Part shown: one piece after another, positions 10,523 to 49,610 of the stretch | How positions within the stretch are numbered: the stretch's first letter is position 1 | How the letters are laid out: each line of letters starts with the position of its first letter | Assembly (NCBI GenBank): GCA_029964075.1 | Contig: CM057129.1 | Coordinates: 22,497,430-22,561,429, forward strand | Direction: 5' to 3' | Length of the DNA stretch: 64,000 nt | Source: Patiria pectinifera | Lineage: Eukaryota; Echinodermata; Asteroidea; Valvatida; Asterinidae | Notes under the pieces: model-generated | Told to the model about the DNA's origin: nothing | Seen by the model: only the letters and a program-made list of their open reading frames with translations | Database searches by the model: none | Program-made: the position numbers and the translations under genes

Positions 10523-10964
10523 GGCTCAGTCAGACTCAAAGCCACTCTAAAGATTGAAGCACTAAAAACAAACAAGGGCCGGGTAAATGTTTTAATTACA
10601 ACTTTGAGAAGAAATACCAGTGAGGGTTTAAATGGCAGGGGCAAAATTGCCAACAGTTATATGAACCATGGATTTTCACACTGGCTTCTTTCTGGTTCTA
10701 AAATAGGTTATCAGTTATTAACTAGCACATTATTAATTATATTAAGATGATCAAAGTAAAAAAAACTGCGCCCTTTTTTCCCCACCACTGTCCACTAGAA
10801 CAAGTAAACTAGCACTTTGCCCTGGCAAACTTAAAAATAAAACTGCACCCCAAATTGTACAGAAAGATAAATTTGAACAGGTTCAACCATGTCAATGTCA
10901 ATAAAAAATGTCCTTGCTCTATGGTTTGACCACGTGACGAAAGGCCTCGACCTACATAAAAAAT

Positions 10965-11534
10965 AGGTAGTGTATATTTTGCCGGAGGTAACGCCGGCAA
11001 ACTAACGTTTACTAAAGGTTTGCCGGCGGCAATCCATATCAACAGAGGGCGCTGTACTCTTTAAGATAGGGCTGAATTATAACATGTATTAAATTCCCAC
11101 CAAAGTTGTGTAGCACAGTTGGTGCAGTGGTTAAGCAGTAGCTCTAATGAGTGGGATGTCCCGAGTTCGAATCCTGACCCCTGCCACAATTTTAAGGTGT
11201 TTTTTTTTCTATCCCCAAATAAATAAGAATATTCTTCTTTTATTATTTTAATATGTCTCAAACATTTTATTGCAGAGTATTACTTTTTCTTTTTCAGATT
11301 TGTGGCTCTGGAGGATTTTTTTTAAAGGGAAATAAAGTCCGAAATTATAAAATGGTCTGATTCCCATCTTGTTAATACAAAAATACAACGATAATATTGG
11401 CATGGAGCCAGACTAAAATTTGTCACCGGAAAATGGTAAAGTACAAAAAAACAGTAACTGCGCATGTTCAGTGCATATCCGGCAAACTAACGTTTACTGA
11501 AGGTTTGCCGTCTCCGGCAAAATATCCACTGCCT
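10965..11534. mobile_element. AGGYAGTG-TIR non-autonomous DNA transposon, intact copy
   Basis: Terminal inverted repeats AGGTAGTGTATATTTTGCCG (left) and the reverse complement of AGGCAGTGGATATTTTGCCG (right). Both are followed by a second inverted block with AACGTTTACT and TTTGCCGG. It is flanked by AAAAAAT on both sides (10958-10964, 11535-11541), a 7- to 8-bp target duplication. It carries an internal tRNA-like SINE segment (11107-11340). The other copy, 29236-30888, also has an A/T-rich 8-bp duplication. This fits the hAT type; there is no coding capacity. Confidence 0.75.
11107..11340 (+). repeat. tRNA-derived SINE segment inside the TIR element
   Basis: A tRNA-like head with an A-box-like GTGCAGTGGTTAAGC and B-box GAGTTCGAATCCTG is followed by a body ending GCTCTGGAGGATTTTTTTTA and AAATAAAGTCCGAAATTAT. 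Separate copies are at 12377-12617 (minus, standing alone) and 30505-30745 (minus, inside the second TIR element). It therefore seems to be an independent SINE captured by the DNA element. The tRNA-like fold is too diverged to call a functional tRNA gene. Confidence 0.65.
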
Positions 11535-12010
11535 AAAAAATATACAAAATCTGGCTATAAACAAAATTAAGGCCATGGCATATACCATACCATGGCATAG
11601 GGTCGCTTAGCCCCCCCCCCCCCCCCAAAAAAAAAGTTGTTATAACCTGATATTTTTGATAACTACTTTAAGTTGTAGTAGGCCAACCAATATAGATCTG
11701 AATATGATTGAAGCTATAAATTAATAAATCACCAGGACATATAAAAGCATGATAGATCAAGGAACAGGGAAAAGTCAGGATGAAATCTCCAAACCACACA
11801 TGCTGCAGAGCGCAGTCAAACCATCCATGGACATGATGGAGGCTGCCATCTTTTCTGATTAAAAAGCTCAAACTATGGAGGGCGCTAGACTCATTTCATA
11901 ATCATAACAGCTCGGAAAAAATGCAAGCCGGTGTGCGCGTGCCCGCTTGAGTCGCAATTTTTAACTTGTATTATTCACTGCAGCTAGGCCTAAGCCTTAG
12001 GAGAAGAAAA

Positions 12011-21000: not shown

Positions 21001-23816
21001 CTTCTCTCAAACCAAGGGGAATAAATGGGTACCTGTGAGGGTATTGGTCTCATGGCCTGATGAACAGGGTTAAAAATTGCGAAGCGCTTTGACCTCTTTG
21101 GCATAAAGCACTATAATAAGCACCACCTTATTATTATAATCATGTAGGTCTCTTTTCCCTTGTCTTCATGCTCTCTTTTAAAGACACGTGAGGATATTTG
21201 TAATTATTCGGAAATGGACCTATTGATCTGATTAGAAAAACCGTGCTCAAAGTGAAGATAGGTCTGGTACCAAATACCCTGTGAAATTATTCTGCCTGAA
21301 ATGGTATTATTGAGAAGAAAACTGAAGGTGGTTTTAATAAGAGTGTAAAACATACAATAGCCTCTGAGCAAAACCTTCCAAAGGTGGTCGAGTGCTAAGA
21401 CATCTGCACTAGAAAGCAGGAGGTCGTGGGTTGGAGTCCCACCCGAGTGATTTTTTCCAACTTTCACTCGGGAGGTAACACACTGAGTATACAGTGTTTA
21501 AACGTCAGTGAAGGGCAAAACCTAATTTGGTTTATATCACCCCGACACAAAATTCCATCTTATAATACTTCCAAAGGTTGTTATTCACCCTACTTGAGAT
21601 TTTGTGCAATGCACGAAAAGTAAATGAACCTACTTACTATTATTATTATTATTAATCATTTCTGGTAATGAAAACAAGGATTCCACAAAAGCGCCCTAGG
21701 CACTGTAGCTCGCAAGCCTGAAGTAACCTGTGGAGAGAAGACAATGAGAAAAGTAACATATTTAGAGGTGGGAGGAAAAACCCAGAAGAATATTCTGGGG
21801 AAAACCCACGGGATCAGGCGGGGACTGAAAACCCAATCCACATATTGGCCCAGGTGGGATTCGAACCCAGGTCATAGTGGTGGAAGGCAAGGAAAGTACC
21901 CCTACGCCAACCTGACTCCCCTGTCTTTTACACCTTTACAAAATGAAACAAAACAAACCAAAAACCTTTACAGACTTAGCCAGTAACTATAACAGGTAGC
22001 ATTGAATCGAACACAAGTCAGGTCTTGGTAAAAAAACAAAACAAGGCACTTCTTTTTCTGTGAGTGAAAAGAAAACATAATCCCGATGATCCTAGTATTA
22101 ATCTTTTACCTTGACTACAGTTTTGTGTGACATGTTTTTATTTGTTTGTTTCTTTATTTGTTTTATTATTTTTGTTTGCCAGGGTAACATCCTCAAGAAG
22201 CAATCCAGTGATGGTCTGTCATTGTCCATGGCCCTAGCCATCTTTGTCACCTCGGTCCTCTGGGTGCTGTATGGAATCGCCGTGGACGACTTAGTGCTTT
22301 CAGTGAGTAAATTATATTAACATACGTTAGAAAATTCAATCCAAGGTTGTAGAATTGGGGGAGAAGGTTCATAAATACCAATATTTATCCTCAGTTGCTG
22401 TGAAGTTTGCACAGAAGCTAGTGTTGTAGACGAGTCAATTACAAGCCTGATCACAAGTTAATCGAAAGGCATCACACGTTACATGGTTGAGCAATAACAA
22501 AGGAATGTCTTTGATACAGAGCATTTGAATAGCTTGTGACTTAGATTGGATGACTTGTGTATTACCTGTGATTGACTTGTGATTGACTTGTGATTGACTT
22601 GTGATGGACTTGTGATTGACTTGTGATGGACTTGTGATTGACTTGTGATGGAGTTGTGATACACTTGTGATAGACTTGTGAAAGACTTTTTAGGACTTGC
22701 GAAGGACCTGGCTCCAACACGTTTTACGTTTTTGTGTCAAAATATGTTCCCTTTTCTTCTACCCGACTGTTTTGAGTGAATTCCCCTGTGAGGGAAAAAT
22801 ATGAAAATCACTTAAAACCCCTAAAACCAACCAAATAAAAGTGCACATTGTTTTGTTTTGGTAAACTCTGAGAAAGGCACAGTAACTTTACCTGACTGAA
22901 AAATAAAAGAAGCATCAACTATCGTACTGGACTCAAATTACCACCTAAATGCAATCGCCTTCTGTGAAACTCAAATGAGAATTATGAATGATGTCCCTAA
23001 TTTTTTGTTTGGGGGGGGGATCTTTAGCCTTAATAGCAACTGATGCCCCATATGCCCAGTGTATCAATTTCAAGCTAGAGTGGAATTTCAGGCACATTTG
23101 TTCCAAGAGTTTGTAACATAATCCTCATAATATTGGCAGTGCATATCTTCTCATTAAATTACGGAAAGCTGTTCACCAGCTGTCATTCATCGGTTTTCAC
23201 AAACAGCAGTGAGCAATTATCTTTATTAGCATTAAAAATACGAGGCAATTGGCATTAGAAAATATGAGGCAATTTTCAAACTCTTGCTATAACCATTTCA
23301 CGGATTACTAAACAAAAGTGTGTTTTTGCTCTACAAAAGTTACAAATGCAGCGTTCTTTGCTATACACTATTTATTTTTTACAAACAAATTGCTTCTTAA
23401 AAATTGTCTTTCTGATATAAAGAACAAGGAATGTCTTCTGGTGTGATATTGCTAAGAAATGAAGCTTTTCCTTGGAGAAACTTATGTTAGAATCAAACAC
23501 CAGACTCTCTAGTTTTTTTTATTAACAAAAATGACAGACACAATTTTGTTTGTTTATTTATTGCCGTTTTAGCTTGAAGTCTCATCAGTAATTTCACTGC
23601 TATTTTAAGGGCCCTGTACTCATAATGAAAAGAAAAAGAAATGTGGTTTAAAAAAATAGGGAACATAGGAGTACAATATATAATTTATGGTTGTACACTT
23701 GTGGTTTTTTTTTTCTCTTCTAGCTGCCCAGCATATCGGGTGTTCTGTCCGGCTCAGTCCAGTTCTACCTGTTGTGGAGTTACCCAGCAAAGGGCAAGGC
23801 CGTCAAGTCAGAGTAG
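12011..23816 (+). CDS. SLC50A1: SWEET sugar transporter (SLC50A1 family)
   Basis: Complete gene of six coding exons: 12011-12078, 14463-14540, 15763-15886, 17339-17500, 22183-22302 and 23724-23816 (stop TAG). Every junction is GT-AG and in phase, giving 214 residues, the usual length for animal SWEETs (human 221). SWEETs are bidirectional sugar uniporters of the plasma or Golgi membrane with seven helices, in two three-helix repeats joined by a linker helix. Seen here: TM1 with the family proline (GGGIPVF, residues 20-26), the KGTTHSVPFLPFL loop (31-43), TM3 (QIVSSVGMTMSTIYVTLF), TM5 ending NMAPIADI (137-144), the SSDGLSLSMAL loop and TM6 (VLWVLYG), and TM7 (185-204) followed by a short basic tail. 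The asparagines usual in TM3 and TM7 of the pocket read as serines (see findings). The start ATG is the first in its exon and continues straight into TM1. Confidence 0.94.
12377..12617 (-). repeat. tRNA-derived SINE, free-standing copy
   Basis: On the minus strand it begins GCCCCGCCGTGGCCTAGTGG (A box) and has B box GAGTTCGATTCCCTG. It ends with the body shared with 11107-11340 (GGAGGATTTTTTTAAAAAGG, AATAAAGTCCGAAAT). It lies in SWEET intron 1 (12079-14462). The tRNA-like part could be mistaken for a tRNA gene, but the long shared 3' body argues for a SINE. Confidence 0.7.
12765..13095. repeat. GTTGCAACCTGACGC family MITE, two adjacent copies
   Basis: Two copies lie back to back: about 12765-12930 and 12945-13095. 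Each end carries GGCGTCAGGxTGCAACATTC or its reverse complement. The interior has CAGATTCATGTCTTATCATC and CAACGACTGACCTTCATT, as in the copy at 58106-58289. In SWEET intron 1. Confidence 0.6.
13300..13760. repeat. A/C-rich low-complexity tract
   Basis: Roughly 450 bp with a strong A plus C bias on this strand, built of AAACCAA, AAACCAT and TAAAACCAAC words. Long minus-strand open frames here are composition artefacts. In SWEET intron 1. Confidence 0.65.
15968..16313. mobile_element. TAA-flanked MITE, copy 1
   Basis: A 346-bp element starting GGCC and ending GGCC with inverted ends (AAGTCTTCGGTTTCTGG at the left, CCAGAAACCGGAGCC at the right). It is flanked directly by TAA at 15965-15967 and 16314-16316. 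The interior matches copy 2 (39795-40166) over its length: GTGCGGCGACGC, ATGTCGGCTGATGACT, AGAGGCCACATAAAGC, TTAAAATTGTGCA. TAA duplications point to the PIF/Harbinger group. Located in SWEET intron 3. Confidence 0.85.
16585..16785. repeat. Fold-back element with about 90-bp arms
   Basis: Left arm 16585-16674 and right arm 16697-16785 are imperfect reverse complements. Shared blocks are AAGTTACGGAATTT, ACCGTTTTAAAG, TCTGTCCACGGATCACAA and TTTCAGCAAAACGAAAACAA. The loop is about 22 bp. It could form a long hairpin in the SWEET pre-mRNA (intron 3). Confidence 0.8.
18130..20819. mobile_element. 2.7-kb non-coding element rich in TGACGTCA palindromes
   Basis: Bounded on the left by GGCTGTTTCGGCA (18130-18142) and on the right by its reverse complement (20807-20819). 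The right copy is part of a perfect 13-bp hairpin with a 4-base loop (20790-20819). In between, TGACGTCA occurs at least ten times (for example 18262, 18780, 18939, 19108, 19119, 19951, 20111, 20397, 20591, 20602). Phrases recur such as GTGTACAAAG, ATCCCACTGCAGAAAA and ACCAAGTTTCAACCCAATC. No open frame of note and no clear target duplication. It fills most of SWEET intron 4 (17501-22182). Calling it one mobile element is inference from the inverted ends. Confidence 0.5.
20886..21137 (+). repeat. tRNA-derived SINE (TTGGGCAAGACACTT type)
   Basis: Head GTGCCGTGGTCCAACGG with B box TGGGTTCAAATCCTG, a body with TTCTTGGGCAAGACACTTTA, AATGGGTACCTGTGAGGG and GGTCTCATGGCCTGATGAAC, and a TTATTATTATAAT tail. 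The body words are widespread in animal SINEs. A second copy is at about 53036-53275, and a minus-strand fragment is near 35930-35965. In SWEET intron 4. Confidence 0.8.
21378..21655 (+). repeat. tRNA-derived SINE, second family, with ATT tail
   Basis: tRNA-like head GGTGGTCGAGTGCTAAGAC (A box) and GTGGGTTGGAGTCCC (B box). The body contains CTCGGGAGGTAACACACTGA, and the 3' tail is TATTATTATTATTATTAA. The tail abuts the tail of the oppositely oriented SINE at 21656-21925, so two SINEs sit tail to tail. Confidence 0.7.
21656..21925 (-). repeat. tRNA-derived SINE (AGAATATTCTGGGG type), copy 1
   Basis: On the minus strand the head reads GGAGTCAGGTTGGCGTAGGG with a perfect B box GGTTCGAATCC. The body includes the reverse complement of CCAGAAGAATATTCTGGGGA, and the 3' end runs into a TAATAAT tail. 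Copies 2 (33671-33950) and 3 (60927-61192) have the same order and orientation. In SWEET intron 4. Confidence 0.8.
22430..22690. repeat. CTTGTGA fold-back family, copy B
   Basis: Short left arm with TCACAAG words, core GCAATAACAAAGGAATGTCT at about 22492, then a right arm of ten or more GACTTGTGATTG units (22550-22680). In SWEET intron 5 (22303-23723). Confidence 0.7.
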
Positions 23817-27986: not shown

Positions 27987-30900
27987 ATGGAGCAGGATGA
28001 ATTGAAGGTGGCAGTGAAGCCAGAAGTTGAAAAGTTACAGCAAACAAAACGGATATATCGGTAAGTTGAAAAACTTACCTCGAGAAAATATTCCCATCAT
28101 GCCCATTCCCTGCCATTCAAACGTGTACAGTCAGTGCGACGGAAAGATTTCCATATACGAAGTTCACTCAACACTCTGTGTACAAAACCTATGAGAGTGG
28201 ACTGAACAATTTTAAGTGTTTTCTAAGAAAATGCTTGTATTTTCTCACTGCTCAAATTGACTTTGATGACATGAAATTGCTATCTGGGGGCTAGCCCCAC
28301 TAGTGTGGCCGTCGGTATGCTGCGCTGAACCTCTGGCCACACACCGTGGTACCGCGGGCTACTGAGGACGAAGTTTTCATAAAATCTGCGGTCTGTTTCT
28401 TACATTCTCAGTTTCTTACTTTCTTATGGTTGTATTCTATGATGTCTCACCTATCACTTCTGGGATGCTTAGGTCTAATGATGTTCCATTTTCCGAGATA
28501 TTCTTCAATCTTTCTGGAGCCCATATCAATATGCACTCGTGAAAAGTCTGGTGGTGATGGCAGCCATTTTGAATGTGACAAGGATGACCTCAAGCTGTGA
28601 CGTCGTGTTTATGCAAATTGCTTGTCGAGCGCGCGAGTTGCAAATGCGACGGCTGTTTCCTGAACCATGCATTTATCGTCAGGGGGCCACGTGCACTGAT
28701 CTCTATTCAGGATCTACGGCACAGGAAACAGCCGTCGCATTTGCAAGCAATTTGCATTGTCACATTCAAAATGGCTGCCATCACCACCAGTATCTGGCTT
28801 GTTACTAGTCAATACAGAGGAAAATTAGTGAACTTCGCATATGGTAATCTTGCCCAGCTGACTAAGAAAAATGACACTCTAAAATGACATTCTGATATTT
28901 CTTGACACATTTGATTAGTTGGCAATGACACCTTGAATATCAGCAGGTTTAGTTTTGTAGAAAGAGGGTAGGGCTTTGATTTATGAGGGGTTAAAGACGA
29001 CGATGACAAACAGAAAATATATTAAAAAAGCATGATCGCGAACTGCAAAAAAAGGTAGAAAAGTCACATTTTCTTTGAAAGTGCTTTCAAAATTACAACT
29101 AACATGAGCTTATCTGAAGAAACAAGACGCTTTAGCCTGCAAAAGTCACTTTGGTACCGGACAGTCATCTGCAAAAGTCAGTTTTTGAACAGAACTTGTA
29201 AAAATAGAGGTGTCCTAGTCTAACTATATTTTTTTGGCAGTGTATATTTTGCCGGAGACGGCAAACCTTTAGTAAACGTTAGTTTGCCGGATATGCACTG
29301 AACATGCGCAGTTGTCGAGCGCAAAGTGAGTCCCCCGCGCAAGTTTAAACCTGCGCGCACGCAAGTTTAAACTTGCGCACGCATTCATTTCCTTGCTACA
29401 AATTGCGCACGCAAGTTTAAACTTGCGCACTGCATAGATTTTCCCGGCCACGCATACAGAGCCGCTAAACTATTTTTTTCCCCGGGTATACTGATATGTA
29501 ACATTATTTTTAAAGCAGATTTTTTCTCCGATTTAATAGCATCACTGAGCTTCGGGAGACAATGCCTTAATAACTTTTTTTGAAACATTTTATTAAATTC
29601 ATTAAATAAATCATTTGCAAATTTATTTACTTTTTAAAATAATTTCCATTTTATATGCATAGCGTTTTTAAGTTGTAAACATTTTTTAATATGAATTATT
29701 GAGCCTGCAATAAAAAAATATTTGTTAAATTAATAAATTTAATTAATTAATTAAATTAGTAATGCATTCATTAATTTTCTTTTCAAATTATGCATTTTTG
29801 AAGTGTACACAGCGCTCGAAATGTTATGCAAGTATTTCTAAAAACAATATGAATTATTGTACCGTCCAATTTATTAATTGTTAAATTAATTAGTATTTTT
29901 TTAAGAAAAAGTACTTTTTTAATTGTAGAATACATAAGCATTTAAAAAATAATGTAAATGATTACTATAATGTTAAAACTTTTTACGTTAACAGCGGGTT
30001 ACACCTAGGAAATTGTGATTTATTTACATTCAAGAATATAAATAATATACAACTTCAGTACACTTTCCAAGCAATCGCCGCTAGTGTGCTTAAGTTTATT
30101 GCTTGCCCGTTCCCCTCCCCAGCCCCGCCCCCACGTACCCTTAAACAACTTCTCTGATAAGCACTGCTAAATCTCAATGTTTCTTTTCATTGACGCTAAT
30201 TGAATTCCCCTTTTTATTTATTTCTTTATTCTTTCATATATTCCATTATTTCTCCATGTACTCGAGTTTGAAAAAAAAAATTCTTCATCAATGAAAATCC
30301 CTACCGCAAAAGAAGGTTGCGATCGCCTTTGCGCAAGTTTAAACTTGCGCACGCAAGTTTAAACTTGCGTGGGGGACTCACATTGCGCTCGACACAGTTA
30401 CTGTTTTTTTGTACTTAAACATTTTCCGGTGACAAATTTTAGTCTGGCTACATGCCAAAATTATCGTTGTTACCTCGTATTCACAAGATGGGATTCAGAC
30501 CATTTTATAATTTCGGACTTTATTTCCCTTTTAAAAAAAATCCTCCAGAGCCACAAATCTGAAAAAGAAAATGTAATACTCTGCAAAAATATGTTTGAGA
30601 CATGTTAAAATAATAAAAGAAGGATATTCTTATTTATTTGGGGATGGGAAAAAAAACCTTAAAAATGTGGTGCGGTCGGAATCGAACGCGAGTCATCCCG
30701 CTTACTAGAGCCTTTGCTTAACCAATACACCAAACGTGCTACACAACTTTTGGTGGGAATTTAATACATCTTATAATTCAGCCCTATTTTAAAGAGTACA
30801 GCGCGCTCTGTTGATATGGATTGCCGCCGGCAAACCTTTAGTAATCGTTAGTTTGCCGTCATTACCTCCGGCAAAATATCCACTATCTATTTTTTTTCAG

Positions 30901-33900: not shown

Positions 33901-36900
33901 CACAGCGGTGGAAGGCGAGGAAAGAAACCACTGCCCCAACCTGGGTCACGCCTTGCAAAGGATCTACACAAGAACTTCTAGGTTTGGGTTCACGCAAAAT
34001 TCATCATTGTGTCATCATTGTATTCAGTTACATATTTTCAGTTTGATTATTTATAATCCACTTTACTGAAAATGTAGGCGTCCTTTCTGAAGGCATGCAA
34101 GAGCACAGGCTTAAAAGTCTCAAGTTAAAAAAAAACCTAAACAACATATAACTCTTTCACAAGGAGGTGGGACAAACCCAAGGATGGAAGTGAAAAAAAC
34201 GGAAGGTATTATGTTTGCTTGTTTCAGGTCCATTGCCGCCTCCTGGCAGCAAGCGAGCCAAGGCCAGAGATTGGGCGGAGAAGGCCTGCCATCGATGCCT
34301 GATTTATCTGGGCGATCTCGGTGAGCTTACAACATCCAGAACTTCTTGTCTTTTGTAAAATCTTTGTGAATACCTCAAACATTATACTACATTGTTGTAA
34401 TCCTGTTTGTTGTGTACTCCAAAGAGTTAACACTGGGTTTTGTCTTTCACCATTGTAAATGTATGAGCACTGTGTACTAAGTGTTGTCAAAGAGCTTGTG
34501 AAATTAAAAGTCTCAAGCTTGCTCAGTCGGGACTTGAACCCACGACCTTCTAGTTACTTATGCAGACGTCTTTTACTGATTGATCACCGAGCATGCCAGG
34601 GTTGGCTTCATGACTTGAATCCAAGAGAGCGGCAGATACTGCATCAGTGATTTACAATGCAATTAGCATCAAATAAATGTGAATTTAAATAAAATGATTT
34701 GGGCGTTATGGAATTGACTTTTTATGTGGGTATGTAGACCCCAACAAAAATGTTAATCTAAATTAACATCTCCCCAAGCAAAGTCTGTCATATTTATTTT
34801 TATTTTGCTTAACCGTTGGATTGAAAATTATAATTATTACCTGAGACCCTAATTAATCCATCACTCTCTGCACTCTAAATTACTCCAGCACTGTATGGAT
34901 TTCTTTATTCATCAGGGAATAAATACAATATATTACAATGTAGTACAATGTAGTACAGGTGTTATTGGGTTATGAATTTTACATTTTTCTTAACGATTTG
35001 TTACTTTGTAGCCCGTTACAGACAGGATTTTGACGGGTTTCGCAGTCGTCTCCAAGCTGAGCGGTTTTACCATCAGGCATTGTTATTGAATCCTGCCATG
35101 GGGATGCCTCATAACCAGTTGGGTACGCTGGCTGGGAACCGACACCAGGGGCTGGACTGTGCTTATCATTACCTCAGATGGTTAGTAAAACAAATACAAA
35201 AATAGTTTGAGGAGAAGTAATTAATGCGAAATTAGTCATTACTTGGTATTTGCTGATTTGACTACCTCCAAAATTCAGCCAATGGACCAGTCGTTTGTTG
35301 CATTGCTTGCCATAATAAACCATGTTGCATTTGTTTTATCACACCTCCTGCATGTTTTGCTCCATAATAGAAATTTGATGAAATTTCTGTGGAAAATCCC
35401 ATTTACAAACCATGTGTAAGAGGAGATTTTAAGGTTTGCATGGTGGAAAGATACTAAAACAAGATAAGGTTGCGGTAGCACCGTGTGTATAAATCTCTTT
35501 TGTGAGTGTGTGTGGTTCTGAAAAGAACCGGAGGGACTCAACGTTTCTGCCCTTCGTCAGGAGAATGATTCACATGGTGCTACCGCAAACTTATCTTGTC
35601 TTAGTAAACTGTGTAATTATTCATCTGTTGTGACGGTTTCAGTGTGGTACCATGAGCAACCTGACTTGCGGTCACAACTGTTGCACAGTTAGGAGTCTAG
35701 AAGCTAGTCTTGGGATACTGCCATCCAGTTGGGCCATAGCACGTACTTTTGTACGTGCAGGGTACCCACTTTTACTTCACAGATGCGCTGGAACATAGAC
35801 CAATAAAAGAAGTGCTTTTGCCTTTGCTTTTGCCTGGCTATAAAATCTGCATGGACAGTAGACAGTGCTTCATGACCACGCACAAGAGCTACGTGTGTGT
35901 TACACAATGGTACATGCACTGGTTGGTGTGCAAATGTTGTAGTAAAGTGGCTTGCCCAAGAACACAAGCACATACTGTAATACTGTAACAAAATGCTACT
36001 GTTCTTTGTTTTTGAATTGACAGCTGGCTGTCAGAGATTCCCTTTGACGGAGCCATCGCCAACCTGGAGAAGACCCTTGAGCAGAACACAAAGCGCTATG
36101 AGGAGCTCCCCCGCCAGGCCAACCGTGACCTCCCTCCTGACCTGCAAAGGTCAGGGGTCAATACATTCACCCTGAAACCTAGTAGTACAGACCAGTAAAA
36201 GAAAACTGCCATAGGCTCCAATGATAAATTGCCTCACTTCGAAATATCAGGATAAATACGTGTAACTCTCCAAGGTGTTCAAGACTCACATCAAATCAAA
36301 GCTTGATTTACCGTCTTCCATATTCTGTTCAATTTATTGGGAGTTAAGTGATTAATTTTGGGTGATTTTGCTGTCCAAACATAATCACCCATGAATGGTA
36401 GTCCTGGAGCCATTTTGAAAAATGACCCCTACACTCTGTTGCAATACAGAGTGACTTTCAGGTCCAAGTTCATCCCAAATTTTCCAGATATAGAACCTAC
36501 AAGTGCAAGGGCCACTAAGTTCCCTTTTAATAAAGATTACTGAGGGCATAAAAAACGTGACCTTATGGTTGTTTTATAGGCAGAGAAAATTTGCTCTGAT
36601 GCTGTTCATACCGATCTGTAAAGACCCGACCGTGCTGATTTGACCAGTCACAGCCGCGGGTGCGCAGCCAATCGTCTGACAAAAACCTAACATACTTGCA
36701 CTTATTCATTCATAATGCATTATCTAGCACATGCAGTGTGACACTTTAGACAGTGTGTGTGTGGTTGCCCATGAGTGCAATGGTGGAGCTGAATCATTTG
36801 TTCTATTAGCATTGGGGCTTTTAATTATCGTGATATTTTTTCTTGGCAGGCCGAGGGACCTGAAGCATTTCCTGATCAAGTTCCTCTACCTCCAGGAGCT

Positions 36901-39900
36901 GCTGCAGCCCGGCGCCTGGCCCTCCCAGGAACAGCTTGCCAGCCTCTGCCAGAACGTCGTCCACGACTTCAGCCTGTGCATGTACCACACCCTGACCCAG
37001 CGGGGCGCCCCCCGACCCAGGGGGGCTAACCCCTTACCCAGGGGGGCTGACACCCCCAGGGAGTCCACCACCATGTCTGACGATATGGTCTTCAAGCTGT
37101 TCAGCATGACCATGATGACAATTTACAAACTGAAGAAAACAGGTAGGAAAATAACAAAATATGAATTCGGTTCTGATCCCCATTTCATGGCACTGCAAAG
37201 CACACAGTTTCTTTGCAAACAGAGCCACAAACCCTTTCTTGGAGTTGATACAACACTAACATCAAAAGCAGAGAGTGCTTCAAGATATAGTCCATCATTT
37301 GTAATTTGTGCATTTTGTTCGCTTGAAGCAACAAAAGTGCTCAAAATCTAAAGAAGAGTACTGAACAACTAACCTGATGAAGTTTTAGCTCAGCTTCAGC
37401 TGTATATTCCAAGAAAAACAGCATTCTAGGATCTCAATTTCAAATCAAAAGTTGCTGAATCATGTTTTGAATTGGGCCTGAATTCAGCGTCTGATACACG
37501 TTCTCACTGAGCCGATTGCAGCTACGCGATGTCGCGCACTGATCCAACGAATTATAGCAGCCAAAACGTACTACTAACGGAAATTTCCGACGGTGCGTCT
37601 TAAGAAACACCGTTGGAAAGGCCTTCTTTCGTTGATTACTTCAAAATGACAGCTTGCCAGAAAGAATAATTTCACAGGGAGTTTAGTCCCCTTACTATCT
37701 TTCAACCAAGTATGTTTTCCAATAATAATTACGCCAGTTACTTTTCGGATAGCTGCAAATGATGGACTATAGCTTTAAACTAGAGATGCAACACTAGAAA
37801 TCACCGTGCACGCACAAGCATTAGCATACATCTGTACCATAAAATATGCTGGACTAGTGATTGACTTGTGATTTGACGTGTTGTTGGCTTGTGATTGACT
37901 TTTGATTGACTTGTCATTTGTCTATAAATAATGAATGAAAAATTGACTTGTGACTGACTTGATTTATGATTGACTGACTTGTGATTGACGTGTGACTGTA
38001 TTTTGATGGACTTGTGATTGACTTGTGATTGACTTTTAATTTTTCTTCTGATTGACTTGTGATGGACATGCAATAGACTTGCAATTGGATTACGGTTGAC
38101 TTGTGATTGACTAGCCATTTGTCTTGTGATTAATTGTGATCCACTTACTTATGATTGACCAGCCATTTGTCTTGTGATTAATTGTGATCCACTTATGATT
38201 GACCAGCCATTTGTTTTGTGATTAATTGTGATCCACTTACTTATGATTGACCAGCCATTTGTCTTGTGATTAATTGTGATCCACTTATGATTGACCAGCC
38301 ATTTGTCTTGTGATTAATTGTGATCCACTTATGATTGACCAGCCATTTGTTTTGTGATTAATTGTGATCCACTTACTTATGATTGACCAGCCATTTGTCT
38401 TGTGATTAATTGTGATCCACTTATGATTGACCAGCCATTTGTTTTGTGATTAATTGTGATCCACTTACTTATGATTGACCAGCCATTTGTCTTGTGATTA
38501 ATTGTGATCCACTTATGATTGACCAGCCATTTGTCTTGTGATTTACTTGTAATCAACTTGTGATTGACTTATGATCGACTTATTTTGTCTTGTGATGAGT
38601 TGATAACAACACTGCATCCTCCCACAGATCGTAAGTGGGTCTCGGCCGCTATCGCCTTCATGCTGGCCATGTTCACTCATCTCCTGACGCACGTCAACGA
38701 GCGACTGCAGAGCGCCCTCTACGAGGCCCAGCACCCGAGACAAATCGGTGATGACGAGGATGACAGCTCAGGTGAGGGAAACCAGTGATGAGCGGGAACC
38801 TGTGAAGAGGGATTTTGCCAAAGCGCAATCTATCTCTGTCAAGTCATTAAACAACAGACCACGTCAAAAACTTGAAAAATGAAGAAATTCACTTACTGTG
38901 AAATTTGAGGTAACAATTTTGCTCTAGCAAGATACTAGAGGCGAAAAATCAAAGTGCGCCGCGTTAGGGGCCACGCCACGTTAGGGGACATCAGCAATAG
39001 TTTTGTTAAGCAATTCATTTCTGTGCTTAGCAAACTTCTGTACGAAGCAGCTCCAGTGAATAGAACACTTATCATCATACCTGTCTTTCTATCTTCCTGT
39101 CCCCAATCCAGATGAGAGCAGTAGTCAGACAGATGAGTCGGGTAATGAGCAACGTAGCCTGGCTGGTACCCTGACTCCAACCCATAGTCAAGAGGTCGAG
39201 AGCTCAGGGACCTGCAGCGATGGCACAGTCAAGCATCCCCCACACAAGGTCAGTTTGGAGCAAGTTTGAACGAGAAGTATAGCTAACCGTAGTTACAACT
39301 GTCTTCACTCGAACCAACACTACAGTAGTTAACTATAGGGGCTATAGTAATACTAGTCTAGTAAAATACACTATATTAAAATTTAATCCAAGAATCATCC
39401 AAATTGATTTCTAATATGTACAAGTCACGGCTCTCTTTTTTTGATACAAATATTGTCTGTTGCAGGACAAGCGTCGTAAACCCTTGAATAGGCTCCGACG
39501 CAGACGGCGCCCTCTACAAGAGGGCCGGCCCGAGAGCGAGGATTCAGACCTGAGCGAGGGCGCCCTGAGCGCCAGCGGAGGGTCGGACTTCAGCTCGTCG
39601 GACGGGGAGGGGTCAAGCGAGGGCGGGCTTCTGGCTCTGTCCGACAGTGACTACCTCATGGACAGCCAGGATCAAGAGGAGGAACAGACCCCAGGTCAGG
39701 GTTGTAATCAGGTCAATTACTAGTCAATCAAGTTAATCAAGTCCAGTTAAGTCAATTACTGGTCAATCACAAGATAATCACAAGCTTAAGATAAGGCCAA
39801 AAAGAAAAAAGTCTCCGGTTTCTGGTATGGAGCTTGCCCAAAAAGTGGTGCGGCGACGCGTTTTTTTTGTTTTTTTTTACCTGATTTTTTTGCTTCAAAT

Positions 39901-42900
39901 GTCGGCTGATGACTACAAATTGTGCCCGACTAAACTTAATGCAAATATATGGGAGTCCAGAGAGGCCACATAAAGCTTATTCTCGACCATAACCCAATCT
40001 AAAAACACGTTAAAATTGTGCAGCAGCAGGATTCCAGTCAAACCAGTGAGTTTTGCGGTTTTGAGACATCATCTTTCATTAAAAAAAAAACTTTTTCATT
40101 TTGCCGACGCGCATGGCTACGGCGACGCGCGCGCATACCAGAAACCGGAGACTTTTTTTTTTGGCCTAAAAGACAGTTTTATTGTTTTCTAGTGTTGTTG
40201 AGATACTTGTAATGGATCACAAGTCCAGTCACAAGTTAATCACAAGTCCAGTCACAAGTCCAATCACAAGTCCAGTCACAAGTTAATCACAAGTCCAGTC
40301 ACAAGTTAATCACAAGTCCAGTCACAAGCAAATCACAAGTCCAGTCACAAGTTAATCACACGTCCAGTCACTAGTAAATCGCAAGTCCAGTCACAAGTCC
40401 AATCACAAGTCCAGTCACAAGTCCAATCACAAGTCTAGTCACAAAGTAAATCACAAGTCCAGTCACAAGTAAATCACAAGTCAGTTCACAAGTAACAGGA
40501 ATGAACAATAACAAGGATAACATTGCAATCAAAGCAATTGGAAGTCGATTGTTTTCTAGTCTTGTAGTCCTTGTGATGGATGGTTGATCAAAGGTACATC
40601 ACAAGCCCGGCCACAAGAAAATTACAAGTCAATTCACAAGTCCAGTCACAAGTTACACGGGACGAACAATAACAAAAGAATGCCTTTGTCACAGCTCATT
40701 TGGATGTCTTGTGAATTGAGATGGGACTGGATGACTTGTGATTTACTTGTGAATATTTGTGATCTATCACAAATTCCTCAACTACAACACTTGTTTTCTT
40801 ACCGCAGAGAAAGACAAAGAGAAGAAAGGGGACACCGAAAAGGCATCGAGTGAGAAGGAGCCTCCGACCCAAGCAGACAAAGGTAGAAGCTAACACAGCA
40901 CTGGAAATGTTGTAAATGTTAGAACCAAGTTTCACAACCAACCGGTTCTTTCAGAACCACACTTTTTCTCAAAAGCAAGGTTTCAAATCTTATCAAATCT
41001 GCCTGCTTGCAATGGCCAAGTTCGCGCAAGGACTATAGTTGACCAGTGGTTAACTAACGTTTGCCCGAACTCTGTCTAGTCGACGGTGGTTGACTACGCT
41101 AGTCGACTATTTGGAACCAGCCTACTGGGGTTGGTTGCTTCGCTGGTAACCAATAGCCGCGCGCATTCATAACGCTAGCAGAGAGCCAGAATCCAGAAGT
41201 TTTGCGATGACATTTTGACCAGCGTTTGACTAGAGACGTTCGCACGTTGCTATTAGTGCGCAGGCGTAAGGTACGTCACAAATCAACCACTAGTCGACTA
41301 ATGGTCCTTGCCCGAACTTGGCCCCTGATGAGGCTTAACCACACATTTGAAGTGTTATCCATACTCCACAGAAAATTACCTCAAAGGAATATGAAGTGTG
41401 GGTGTTAAAGGGAAGATACAACATTTGCAAACGTCAAAAAACGAAAGGATCAAATTATCACGAAATACCTTACTGGATTGTTAGGGAATGACAGTCTAAA
41501 TCATCCTGTAAAGTCATGGCTCCTGGTGTGCTGACATTTGCAAGAAAAATTGTATTTTTCCAAAGCTGGTCGGCCGACCAGCGTTGGAGAAAACTGGCTT
41601 TTTTCAAAAACTGCTCCTAATTTTTTTTTTTTTTAGTTATTCCGCATTTTCTTTGCAATTGATTACACACCTGTGAAGGGGTACAAACCTGATAGACTGA
41701 TTCTCTGACCTTACAATTCCCCAAAGTCTATAAATTGCTCCGTTTCATCTTAAGTGGGGTCAAGGAACCAGACTACAAGAACATGATAGGTTTTCTTGGT
41801 TTTTCCAGCACATACAAGCCCAAAACGTGAAACAAGTCAGTTTAACGATATTTGCTATAACATACTAATCCTCCAAATCCATTTAATTCTGAAAATTGCT
41901 GCAAAAGCAAATGTTGTACATTCCCTTTAAATCTATGGGCAAAAGTGGTTTTGCAAAACTTGAAGGGTTGTGAAGTGCAAAAGACAAGGGAGGGTATCAA
42001 ATAGGGCCTTGTGATGGGTGACTGTCATAAAAAGAAAACCACTCTTCAATCCAAAACTTTGACGACTCTTCTATTTTTCTAGTCAAGGAGTGGTCGACAA
42101 CGAGCCCAGTCTCCCTAGCCCAGAACCTGCGAGACATGTCCTCCCGTCTCCTGGCCCCCAGCCCGACGGGGTTCCTCAAGCGAAGCATCCGCCTGGCGCC
42201 AAGCTTTGATGCCTACGTCAAGGAGAGGCCAGAGTCTGTCAAGGATGCGGGGTCAGGAGGAGGGGAATCGGCGGGGGATGCTGTCAAGACGGAGGAGAAA
42301 ACAGGTGATGAGAAAAGCACAGTGTGGACCACTTCTTCGTAGCATTATAATTTGGGAGATGTTTTCGGTGCCCATTGGACAGGGGTAATAATGATGCAGT
42401 ACATGATAGGTGGTAATGATATAAGAGATATATGCATTTCATGAGTATACATGTTATTATCCATGTCCAATAAGAACACCTTGTTGATTGGTTGGAATTC
42501 ATTGAATTTATGACGCTAGGTGTTGAGACCGCCGGCCAATCAGACGCCTCAAGAGAAGATGCAGACAGCAAGCCCTACCCGCTGGACCTTCAGATTAAGG
42601 TCCTGAATGAGGAACGACTCCTGGGCACGGTCAAGCTCATCACTGATTGGCTGAGGGGAAACAGTGATGTCATCACTACCACTGCGGAGGTAGGTCTCAC
42701 AGAATGATGGGTTCAGTCAAAGTGGAAGCCAGGGGGAGGAGGGGTTGGGTCGGGGGCAGGGGAAATGCAAGACACATCATAGAAGCTGTGTTACAACTGA
42801 TAATGTAGTAACCAACCGATAACGTATCACCAACCGATAATGTATCACAAATTGACCGATATTGTATCACTAACCGATAATGTACCAAAAATTGACTGAT

Positions 42901-45900
42901 AGTGTAGTAAAATTTGTATCCGATAATGTATCACGTGTCGACGGATAATGTAACTACAAAATAACTGTATCCGATAATGTATCACCACGGAACGGATACT
43001 GTATCAACCGATAATGTATCATAAATCAACCGATAATGTATCAGTATTGGGAAAAGGTGTACACAAATGTTTGTTTTATGTCCGATTATCCCGCCCCACG
43101 TTTTGACCAGGGAGGGGGGGGGTCTGGGCTAGTTGATCACCACCACCCCCCATTATTTTGTATTTAGAGAAAAAGGGCTTATTTTGAGGTATTTTCAAAC
43201 TTTCCAACCTGAAATGTATTAAATAGTATTGAGAAAGGGAGAAAAATACAAATAGCTTGAAAGGGGCTGGGACGTATGTAGCATGAAGAGCAACCCCAGT
43301 GTCATGTGGTCTCAGCAAGGCCCCCGCTTGTATTTCACGGCCAGGACTTTTTTTAGCTATCCCCATCCCCAAGTCCCCAGCGCAGATTTACGCTACTGTT
43401 GCAGGGCGGATCCAGGAATTTTCGCGGGAGGGTTCATCAGCAAAACAATCTGAATATGTACACAGGATTTATTTTTTTGGACACTTGGCCTCCGTAAAAT
43501 CAAAAACTTAGGAAGGGGTATCATTTTTCAATAGGGACGCTGTTCAAATTTGACAATTATTAACACTGGATTACAGAATGGTGTAAAAATATCCCTATCT
43601 AAGCTGCCTCCGTCCGTATTTTGAACAGGCGGACATTATACCAGTATTTTTTTGTTTGGGGGAGGGTCACAGCAGAGGGGTGCATTATTTTTAGGAATTT
43701 GTATGCAATTTGTTTTGGGACACAGCTGGGGACCCTCCACCCCGGATCCGCGCCTGTGTTGGCCTCAAGGAAGCGGCAGGCTCGTGGCGTTTGGACTCAA
43801 AACTGTGTGGGTTGAACAAACTTAAGTCAGTGGGTAGACAAATAACAAATGACGTCACATGCGAACGGTGCCCCGGGGCATTATTTTGTACGGTACAGTA
43901 ATATTTTGTACGGTACAGTAAAATTGTGTACCTGATTGTAGGATTTTATCAGCGTTCCCGTTGAAAATATGGCACGACACCCCCTCCCCCTCATCGACCC
44001 CTCCCCTCATCCCCCTCCCCCTCACCCCCCATCCCCCACTAAATGAGCAGTAATGTTGTGATTGTGCCCTTTCTGTAAGAAAAAAATATCAACGGGGGTC
44101 GACAAGGGACCCATGAAGCTTGATCGCATCTAGACTATCTTCGACGATTGCCGCCTAAATCCGGTAAACTTGTTACATTGTATCTTTTGTGACAGCTCAA
44201 GTTACATGATCATTTCAGATGGTAGTTTTGCTATACACATGCCTCGCCACTTGTATGTGTTCCCGGTTCATGCACAGCGCGTATTTTGAATGATGCAAAG
44301 TTATTGGGGGAGGGAATAGTCTGGGAGACCATCGCAAGTTAAATTGAACGTATGCGCGCGCCGACGTTGCCTGACGCTCATGTAAAGACGCTGCTGCTAA
44401 TAGCCACATTCTGGCACATTCTGGAAGTGGTGTGGAACCTTGCGCGCGAACCAGTACAGTACAGTACGCACATGCTGTGTCCCGTCCATTGATCTCCATA
44501 CGGGGATCAATGGTCCCGTACGTCCATGGGGCTCTCAAAAGTGGTAAAACTCGCCCTCTTGTGTCGCAGCACGGAGCCCATGTGGAGGTTAAATGTCCGG
44601 AGAAAAGAATTTGTCCACATTTCGGCGCGGATGTGCGAGTGCAGTTCCCCCCCCCCCCCTTGACATCAAAAGCTGGATACGCCACTAGCCTAGGCCCACT
44701 TGGAAGTAGAGCGTCTCCAAACCAGAGCAACTCCCTACCTCCCAAAATAAAAAAAAACCCATATTCTTAATGATAAACTTTCTCGAGTGGGGACTTATCA
44801 TAGTAAAGGCACTTATTAGACTTTAAATAATTTGCAATATTTCCACCTTTTTCCAATACTGATACATTATCGGTTGATTGTTGATACATTATCGGTTGAT
44901 ACAGTATCCGTTCCGTGGTGATACATTATCGGATACAGTTATTTTGTAGTTACATTATCCGTCGACACGTGATACATTATCGGATACAAATTTTACTACA
45001 CTATCAGTCAATTTTTGGTACATTATCGGTTAGTGATACAATATCGGTCAATTTGTGATACATTATCGGTTGGTGATACGTTATCGGTTGGTTACTACAT
45101 TATCAGTTGTAACAAGCTGTTCTATTGTCAGTTGGCGGACAAATAATTTTTTGCCCCGAACTTCACACGTGTATTTAGACACCCCCCCCCCTCCCAAAAA
45201 AAACTCATGGATGTTGTGTGTTTTTGTGTAAAATACCAAGAATTTATATCAAAGGTTTTCCTCCCACATCAAATGCTTTGCAATTCTTCAATGTTTTCTG
45301 TCCACATGTTTCTTCATTCTTACATGCTACAGTGTCATGTACATTATTTGAACCATTACTGGTTTCATGACCAGAAGTAGATAAAATATAATTTTCATGT
45401 TTTGTTTTTCACTCAGAACACTCAGATGCTTTGGTCCAAGCTAGCCTTGCTACTGAATCAGCTGCCACGAGTTGAAGATATTTGCTCCAATGGTAGGACA
45501 TGCTAGCTAGGAGTTTTTTCCGAAATTTCCGAATTGTTGGCTTCATTCTGTTTGAGAAACATCCAATCCTATCTTTATGTGACCACAGTTTCAATTAAAA
45601 AAAAAATTGGTATTGAAAGTTTTTTAATTGTTCTCAATCCAGATATGAAGCCGAAGCTGGGGACAATACTGCAATTTGGAAAAGCCCCTAAGCTCTGTTT
45701 CAGTAGTTCCAGTTCTTGCTATCTTTATGTGATAACAGTTTTGATTTAAAAAAAAAAAGAAAAAATATTTGGCATTGAAAGCTTCTAAATTGTTCTCAAT
45801 CCAGATGGGGGCAATACCGCAATTTGGAAAAGCCCCTCAGCTCTGTTCCAGTAGTTATTGATCCTTTTCCAGTTCTTGTCAGTGACCCGACAGAAACACA

Positions 45901-47390: not shown

Positions 47391-49610
47391 ATGCACAAGG
47401 GTCAGCAACCTCTTGATGGACATGGCCCTGTGTCGACGAGACTGAGCCTTTGCTTCCTGTCCAACACTTGCTACATCCTGGCGAAACTGATTCACTCACT
47501 GAAACCACCGTTGAAACTTAAAGCCACATGCCAAAAACTGTTTAAGTCAACTCCACCTGTCAGCCACCCCTCTCCATATCTCTGTGCTAATGTAGTCCCT
47601 TCTTTCCTCCCCCCCTCCTCCAATTTAAAAACCAGTCCTAGGATCTCAACACAAACAAGGGCAGGATTTGGTGTCAATTAGATTAGTAGGTGGTGAAAAC
47701 TAAAGCCAAGTTCCAAAAATAGTTGACCAACAAAGAAATCCCCCCACCCATCATCAACCATGCAGTTCCCCCTCCCCATATCTCTTTCTATCAAGTCCCT
47801 CCTCCCCCTCCCCCACCTAAGTAAAAAATACAACCATTTCTATGATCCAAACAAAAGCAAGGGCAGGATTTGGTGTCAATTAGATCAGCACACCTTGAGA
47901 AAAGTATTAAAAGCCAAGTGCCACAAACTACTTTAGTCAAGCCCCACCTGTCATCAACTACCCCCAATCTCTGCCTACCTAGTCCCACCCCTGCCCCCAA
48001 GTTTAAAAACCATTCCTAGGATCCCAACAACAGCTAGGGCAGGATTTGGTGTCAATTAGATCAGCACGCGGGAAAAAAGCAAAGCCAAGTGCCACAAACT
48101 GTTTTAGTCAACCATCACCTGTCATCAACTATCCCCTATCTCTGCCTACCTAGTCCCACCCCCGCCCCAAAGTTTGAAAACCATTCCTAGGATCCCAACA
48201 CAACAATAGCTAGGGCAGGATTTGGTGTCAATTAGATCAGCACGGGAGAAAAGCAAAGCCAAGTGCCACAAACTGTTTTAGTCAACTATCACCTGTCATC
48301 AACTACCACCTATCTCTGCCTACCTAGTCCCACCCCTGCCCCAAAGTTTGAAAACCATTCCTAGGATCCCAACAACAGCTAGGGCAGGATTTGGTGTCAA
48401 TTAGATCAGCACGGGAGAAAAGCAAAGCCAAGTGCCACAAACTGCTTTAGTCAAGCCCAATCTGTCATCAACTACCCCCTATCTCTGCCTACCTAGCCTA
48501 GTCCCACCCCTGCCCCAAAGTTTGAAAACCATTCCTAGGATCCCCACAATAGCTAGGGCAGGATTTGGTGTCAATTAGATCAGCACGCGGAGAAAAGCAA
48601 AGCCAAGTGCCACAAACTGTTTTAGTCGACCATCATCTGTCACCAACTACCCCCTATCTCTGCCTACCTAGTCCCACCCCCACCCCAAAGTTTGAAAACC
48701 ATTCCTAGGATCCCAACAATAGCTAGGGCAGGATTTGGTGTCAATTAGATCAGCACGCGAAGAAAAGCAAAGCCAAGTGCCACAAACTACTTTAGTCAAC
48801 CATCACCTGTCATCAACTACCCCCAATCTCTGCCCATCTAGTCCCACCCCACCCCCAAGTTTGAAAACCATTCCTAGGATCCCAACAATAGCTAGGGCAG
48901 GATTTGGTGTCAATTGGATCAGCACGCGGAGAAAAGCAAAGCCAAGTGCCACAAACTGTTTTAGTCAACCATCACCTGTCATCAACTACCCCCAATCTCT
49001 GCCCATCTAGTCCCACCCCGCCCCCAAGTTTAAAAACCATTCCTAGGATCCCTACAAAGGCAAGGGCAGGATTTGGTGTCAATTGGATCAGCACGCGGAG
49101 AAAAGCAAAGCCAAGTGCCACAAACTGTTTTAGTCAACCATCACCTGTCATCAACTACCCCCTATCTCTGCCTACCTAGTCCCACCCCTGCCCCAAAGTT
49201 TGAAAACCATTCCTAGGATCCCAACAATAGCAAGGGCAGGATTTGGTGTCAATTAGATCAGCACGCGGAGAAAAGCAAAGCCAAGTGCCACAAACTGTTT
49301 TAGTCAACCATCACCTGTCATCAACTACCCCCTATCTCTGCCCATCTAGTCCCACCCCGCCCCCAAGTTTAAAAACCATTCCTAGGATCCCTACAAAGGC
49401 AAGGGCAGGATTTGGGTGTCAATTAGATTAGCACGCTTTGGGAACTAAAGCCACGTGCCAAAAACGGTTTCACTTTACCTCTACCTGTTATCAACCACCC
49501 CCATATCTCTACCCATCTAGTCCTGCCCCCCCCCCCTTTCCCAAGATTCCAACATAAGCAAGGGCAGGACTTGGGTGTCAATTAGATTAGCACATGCTGA
49601 AGCCGGGTCC
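47391..49610 (+). repeat. 169-bp satellite array, about 12 units
   Basis: GGGCAGGATTTGGTGTCAAT recurs near 47661, 47861, 48040, 48218, 48384, 48557, 48729, 48898, 49067, 49236, 49406 and 49564. Spacing settles at 166-173 bp in the centre and is exactly 169 between several units. Each unit also has CCAAGTGCCACAAACTGTTT, CCTGTCATCAACTACCCCC and ACCATTCCTAGGATCC. Units are most alike in the middle and diverge at both ends. Long open frames over it are by-products of the repetition. Confidence 0.92.

Follow-up and report, generated by a model that had tools for sequence, protein, structure and literature searches.

The sequence analyzed here (the window) is a 64,000-nucleotide stretch of the starfish Patiria pectinifera (NCBI GenBank assembly GCA_029964075.1, contig CM057129.1, positions 22,497,430 to 22,561,429), and it carries an element in which two long inverted arms, each built from an array of one 14-bp word, enclose a middle region. 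A reading made without database searches (the sequence-only reading) had proposed an unusual transposon at this locus. The element is a genuine cut-and-paste-type DNA transposon, and the copies read are non-autonomous; striking as its confirmed structure is, it falls within a broad kind that is already known.

Arms, arrays and interior of the window element

Each arm carries 12 direct CNGATANNGTA units (consensus CCGATAATGTATCA, core GATANNGTA) and, as inverted copies, the arms are identical at 268 of 271 nucleotides (3 mismatches), which agrees with the earlier description of nearly identical arms of about 270 bp holding some 12 spaced copies of one word. Unit positions 1, 3-6 and 9-11 (C.GATA..GTA), eight of the 14, are invariant in all 12 units, and inverted GATA/TATC half-sites (GATA-N3-TATC) were counted by eye in 8 of the 12. 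Successive unit starts lie 19, 18, 22, 18, 22, 24, 22, 29, 22, 15 and 22 bp apart (range 15-29). The spacing is exactly 22 bp in 5 of the 11 gaps and, when the units are grouped as six pairs, in five of the six. With up to three mismatches allowed, the 14-mer was found at 25 places in the window, 22 of them within the arms, compared with a mean of 5.2 and a largest count of 11 over 100 shuffled windows.

Six-frame translations of the interior matched no Pfam family at E ≤ 1, as expected from the earlier statement that it lacks a transposase. Its longest open stretch has 70, 80 and 77 substitutions at codon positions 1, 2 and 3, an even distribution, and the frame is broken by insertions and deletions (indels), which together indicate that the interior is non-coding. 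An insertion resembling a miniature inverted-repeat transposable element (MITE) is nested within it and, because this insertion is also readable at another fetched locus (L053), it is older than the window copy. A 7-bp duplication (AAGCTGT with GTTAC ends) was equally possible from the window copy alone and was ruled out by the other copies; comparing copies showed that the ends are TGTTAC and the duplications mostly 5 bp long, and thereby settled on the AGCTG duplication given by the sequence-only reading (Table 1).

Table 1. Coordinates of the element in the window and of its parts
Feature	Position	Strand	Length	Remarks
Whole element	42789..45114		2,326 bp	AGCTG on both flanks
Left target-site duplication AGCTG	42784..42788	.		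read directly and compared across copies
Left arm	42789..43059	+	271 bp	TGTTACAAC terminus, then 12 direct CNGATANNGTA units
Left-arm unit starts	42797, 42816, 42834, 42856, 42874, 42896, 42920, 42942, 42971, 42993, 43008, 43030	+		
Interior between arms	43060..44843	.	1,784 nt	non-coding; common to 21 other complete copies read
Nested MITE-like insertion	43402..43756	.		CAGGGCGGATCC ... GGATCCGCGCCTG; TGTTG flanks; by eye
Right arm	44844..45114	-	271 bp	inverted copy of left arm
Right target-site duplication AGCTG	45115..45119	.		read directly and compared across copies

Family copies, target duplications and divergence

Copies were sought throughout the genome (613.5 Mb in 1,020 contigs; C-numbers denote contigs and L-numbers fetched loci). 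With one arm as query, the 40 scored matches, the best 40 of 1,092 first-look candidates, were near 100% identity, and the 34-base end with at most three mismatches occurred at 939 places, compared with none for the reversed control. All 20 loci retrieved with about 10 kb of sequence (L031-L050) contained the partner arm; together with L013 and the window copy they make up the 22 complete copies read. Opposed arms and a direct target duplication were seen in all 22, the duplication being 5 bp long in 16, 6 bp in five and 4 bp in one. The ends are exactly TGTTACAAC...GTTGTAACA in 20 copies, and in L047 and L048 the right end carries a single change. The sequence-only reading had named beforehand two outcomes that would speak against a transposon, namely no other copies, or copies with other boundaries and no duplication; what the search returned was hundreds of copies, and paired arms, fixed ends and a mostly 5-bp duplication recurred in those read. 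Of the 16 five-bp duplications, 15 have G or C at the centre (p 2e-5 at 42% GC). Target sites showed no significant palindromy (33 of 112 pairs against a random mean of 29.4, with 33 or more in 521 of 2,000 draws).

The interior is shared across the family: for 15 of the 21 other copies it gave a single unbroken alignment to the window, at 92-96%, and deletions or an insertion of ~0.5 kb were present in the interiors of L013, L042, L043, L045, L046 and L048. Besides the 20 of 20 fetched loci and the dispersed ends, an CGGATAACG end variant was found at 117 places (100 listed), including on 2.3-kb copies. At L019 (2-1642), a family copy has inserted into an open frame encoding two zinc knuckles, a site that is probably inside a retroelement gag gene. 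Viral contigs held the exact two-unit pattern at no place and a looser pattern at no fewer than 120 places, which were taken as chance matches.

A looser end pattern identified 731 ends genome-wide (reversed control, 2), from which size classes were derived on contigs C1-C3 only, using 83 of 86 listed rows and leaving out three overlapping ones. These 83 ends gave 31 adjacent opposed pairs of less than 6 kb and 21 unpaired ends; 13 pairs were shorter than 0.6 kb, three measured ~1.35-1.45 kb, 11 measured 2.2-2.4 kb and four exceeded 2.6 kb, including a 3.7-kb pair that may join the ends of different elements. Short relatives measure about 0.2-0.4 kb; one of them was sampled twice, at L051 and L052, which form an inverted duplication sharing its flanks. 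This relative is about 280-290 bp long, its last bases not having been read, and by eye consists largely of array on both sides; counted over both strands, the strict GATANNGTA cores number 10 and 9 in the two samples. A variant-end pattern yielded 86 ends (reversed control, 1) and adjacent opposed pairs of 309-579 bp, 24.4 kb (C19) and 44.7 kb (C22). The C19 pair was considered as a giant element and rejected, as it consists of a single short relative present twice, the two copies facing opposite ways and having identical flanks; the C22 pair lies outside the sequence read.

The family is fairly young, with a mean pairwise interior divergence of 2.8% among the copies read, a sample that is itself biased toward young copies. 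By its fraction of private interior changes (21 in 1,780 bases) the window copy ranks second highest among the 22; its arms have one private change. The recent insertion suggested by the sequence-only reading therefore holds in that the family is young, but the window copy is among its more diverged members. Near identity of the arms had also been attributed to recent insertion or arm conversion, and conversion is not supported by the copies. In a right-arm comparison without indels (n=20; L037 and L042 dropped for indels), two of the window's three left/right differences, at arm positions 234 and 263, were each present in 19 of 20 right arms. Since these differences are side-specific in nearly all copies, the arms pass down as a slightly unequal pair and are not homogenized as a rule; L033, which lacks the difference at 234, and L013, which lacks that at 263, would allow for rare local conversion. 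Private changes were less frequent in right arms than in the interior (16/5,959 versus 229/38,169; Fisher p 0.0007), and left arms had 0/5,962 by selection.

Search for an autonomous partner and other window features

The longer copies encoding a transposase that the sequence-only reading had proposed to look for were not found among the copies read. A 4,038-bp copy on C1, sampled over 951 bp, had an ordinary interior with an internal duplication and no transposase in the part read. Outside the sequence read lie two longer end pairs combined from end listings, one of 9.2 kb at C4:16985960-16995122 and one of 4.5 kb at C8:9877463-9881964, and the one place at which an inner-boundary pattern excluding the known interior occurred. 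Genome-wide Pfam searches gave 87 matches to the integrase-like rva_4, five to RAG1 and six to KDZ; for rve, the best 150 of 1,962 candidates were scored. By start positions, no match to rva_4, RAG1, KDZ or scored rve lay within 10 kb of the 362 listed end places (of ~1,000); the absence of rve is weak evidence because only these 150 candidates were scored. The nearest match, to rva_4 on C20, lay some 10 kb outside an arm, and none of the five RAG1-family matches lay within 20 kb of the same 362 places. The negative result for an autonomous copy is limited to these families, as hAT, MULE, P and others were not searched genome-wide. Contig C7 holds many rva_4 matches and four of the five RAG1-family matches, the best of which spans 82-624 of 653 with one stop.

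Elsewhere in the window, arrays of an 11/22-bp unit (TGACTTGTGAT) at 22551-22707, 37858-38581 and 40216-40653 form another short-word array system, those near 38 kb and 40 kb being in opposite orientation. A tandem repeat of 169 bp, with 91% matches, runs for about ten copies over 47832-49523, and a 90% inverted repeat pair at 10958-11544 and 29225-30895, near palindromic blocks such as CGCAAGTTTAAACTTGCG, is probably another dispersed element. A histone 3' UTR stem-loop (40.5 bits) was found on the minus strand at 35489-35534.

Proposed transposition model and relation to known elements

With fixed inverted ends, a target duplication, dispersed copies and no transposase in the copies read, the element is a non-autonomous terminal inverted repeat (TIR) DNA transposon, and its long, repeat-built inverted arms around a middle region give it a foldback architecture in the descriptive sense. 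We consider it quite probable that it belongs to a large, fairly young family of such transposons whose arrays are putative binding sites for a partner DDE transposase. DDE transposases generate target duplications of this kind through staggered strand transfer, and most likely such an enzyme would act in trans on the arrays as repeated putative binding sites. An autonomous partner would produce the transposase, which may bind the repeated GATANNGTA units, often paired 22 bp (two helical turns) apart, and bring both arms together before cutting at the TGT/ACA ends and joining them to target strands staggered by ~5 bp. The arrays would then represent multiplied putative sites, and their length might help short copies that lack genes to win a share of the enzyme.

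Several points weigh against this model. Neither the copies read nor the gene-to-end comparisons revealed an autonomous copy or a transposase. The 22 copies were chosen by having one arm 100% identical to the query, and all 22 left arms are identical, so young copies are over-represented; the lower variation of right arms could in part reflect this choice or older source-lineage variation in the interior. The half-sites seen by eye in 8 of 12 units would also suit arrays that mainly bind host factors (e.g., GATA-type proteins) and act on expression or chromatin instead of transposition; a promoter would be of no use to non-coding copies, but both arms of the copies read retain their arrays, as does the one short relative sampled, and we judge this role quite unlikely. 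Rather unlikely is a more far-reaching possibility, in which the ends would work like those of Tn7 or Mu: the family may represent a new superfamily or a deep eukaryotic DDE lineage in which a transposase multimer or filament would assemble on a dozen paired sites per end, with 5(-6)-bp G/C-centred insertions and 300-bp elements that amount to hardly more than two binding arrays. Transib/RAG transposition yields 5-bp G/C-rich duplications, which the mostly 5-bp, G/C-centred duplications recall, and the genome has five RAG1-family matches; as Transib/RAG ends are CAC, whereas those of this family are TGTTAC, and none of the five matches lies within 20 kb of the 362 listed ends, movement by a RAG/Transib-type transposase is very improbable.

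A more serious, if tentative, alternative is that the element is merely a new non-autonomous family of the Ginger2/TDD type, moved by a retroviral-integrase-like DDE transposase. In the part of the source consulted, Ginger2/TDD elements have TGTNR ends, 4-5 bp duplications and an AT-rich RTATAY target preference, with TIRs of 260 bp in TDD-4 and 297 bp in TDD-5 (PMC2836005). The TGTTA ends, mostly 5-bp duplications and 271-bp arms found here resemble these published features, and rva_4 genes are present in the genome. However, the RTATAY preference is contradicted by the G/C centre of 15 of 16 five-bp sites, duplications are 4-5 bp in 17 of 22 copies but 6 bp in five, and the lack of rva_4 or scored rve matches within 10 kb of the 362 listed ends adds weak evidence. 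Judged by termini, duplication length and arm length, the family appears to best resemble Ginger2/TDD, but we leave its superfamily unassigned because the AT-rich target preference is lacking. A Mutator- or P-superfamily foldback element (Foldback, Tetris, Galileo) would explain why the arms are long and internally repeated and the middle lacks genes; its chances are slight, as duplications of 4-6 bp in all 22 copies contrast with the 8-10 bp of Tetris, which has ~220-bp repeats (PMC4079207), and the 7-8 bp of Galileo in D. willistoni (PMC4168063), as far as the consulted parts of these sources extend. The sequence-only reading was right about a Foldback/Galileo-like architecture, but for the same reason kinship with these elements is not supported.

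Long inverted arms, internal repeats and a middle domain are shared with Foldback, Tetris and Galileo as partly consulted; in contrast to the ~220-bp repeats of Tetris, the arms here contain a 14-bp word at irregular 15-29 bp spacing. Sea urchin TU elements reportedly have arms of short ~15-bp repeats and an 8-bp duplication; they would be similar as echinoderm foldback elements with short-repeat arms, and would differ in duplication length from the mostly 5 bp found here. The sea urchin foldback of Lieberman et al. (1983) is cited in the consulted part of PMC4079207, which also describes extra transposase-binding sites in the internal TIR repeats of Galileo. Literature searches for sea urchin or starfish foldback elements, with Repbase and Dfam outside their scope, offered nothing closer than Tetris. 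The consulted part of PMC2836005 mentions no arrays of a 14-bp word for Ginger2/TDD, and among the rva_4 and scored rve matches compared with the 362 listed ends, no gene for an H2C2 and integrase-like DDE transposase was found with the arms of the present family. Among the integrase-type DDE relatives IS481EU, IS3EU and GingerRoot, IS3EU and GingerRoot mostly have TA..TA ends and 6-bp duplications, with TG..CA ends occasionally in GingerRoot, in the part of the source consulted (PMC10045372); the TA..TA ends and 6-bp duplication of IS3EU differ from this family. The foldback literature consulted, in part, places such elements in the Mutator or P superfamilies, and a foldback-type family with TG..CA ends and mostly 5-bp duplications suggests a further origin of array-built arms, in another superfamily. 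Such a repeated origin would fit the view that elements without genes capture transposase more readily when their binding sites are multiplied, and with hundreds of copies of differing length, the relation between unit number and copy success is measurable in one genome.

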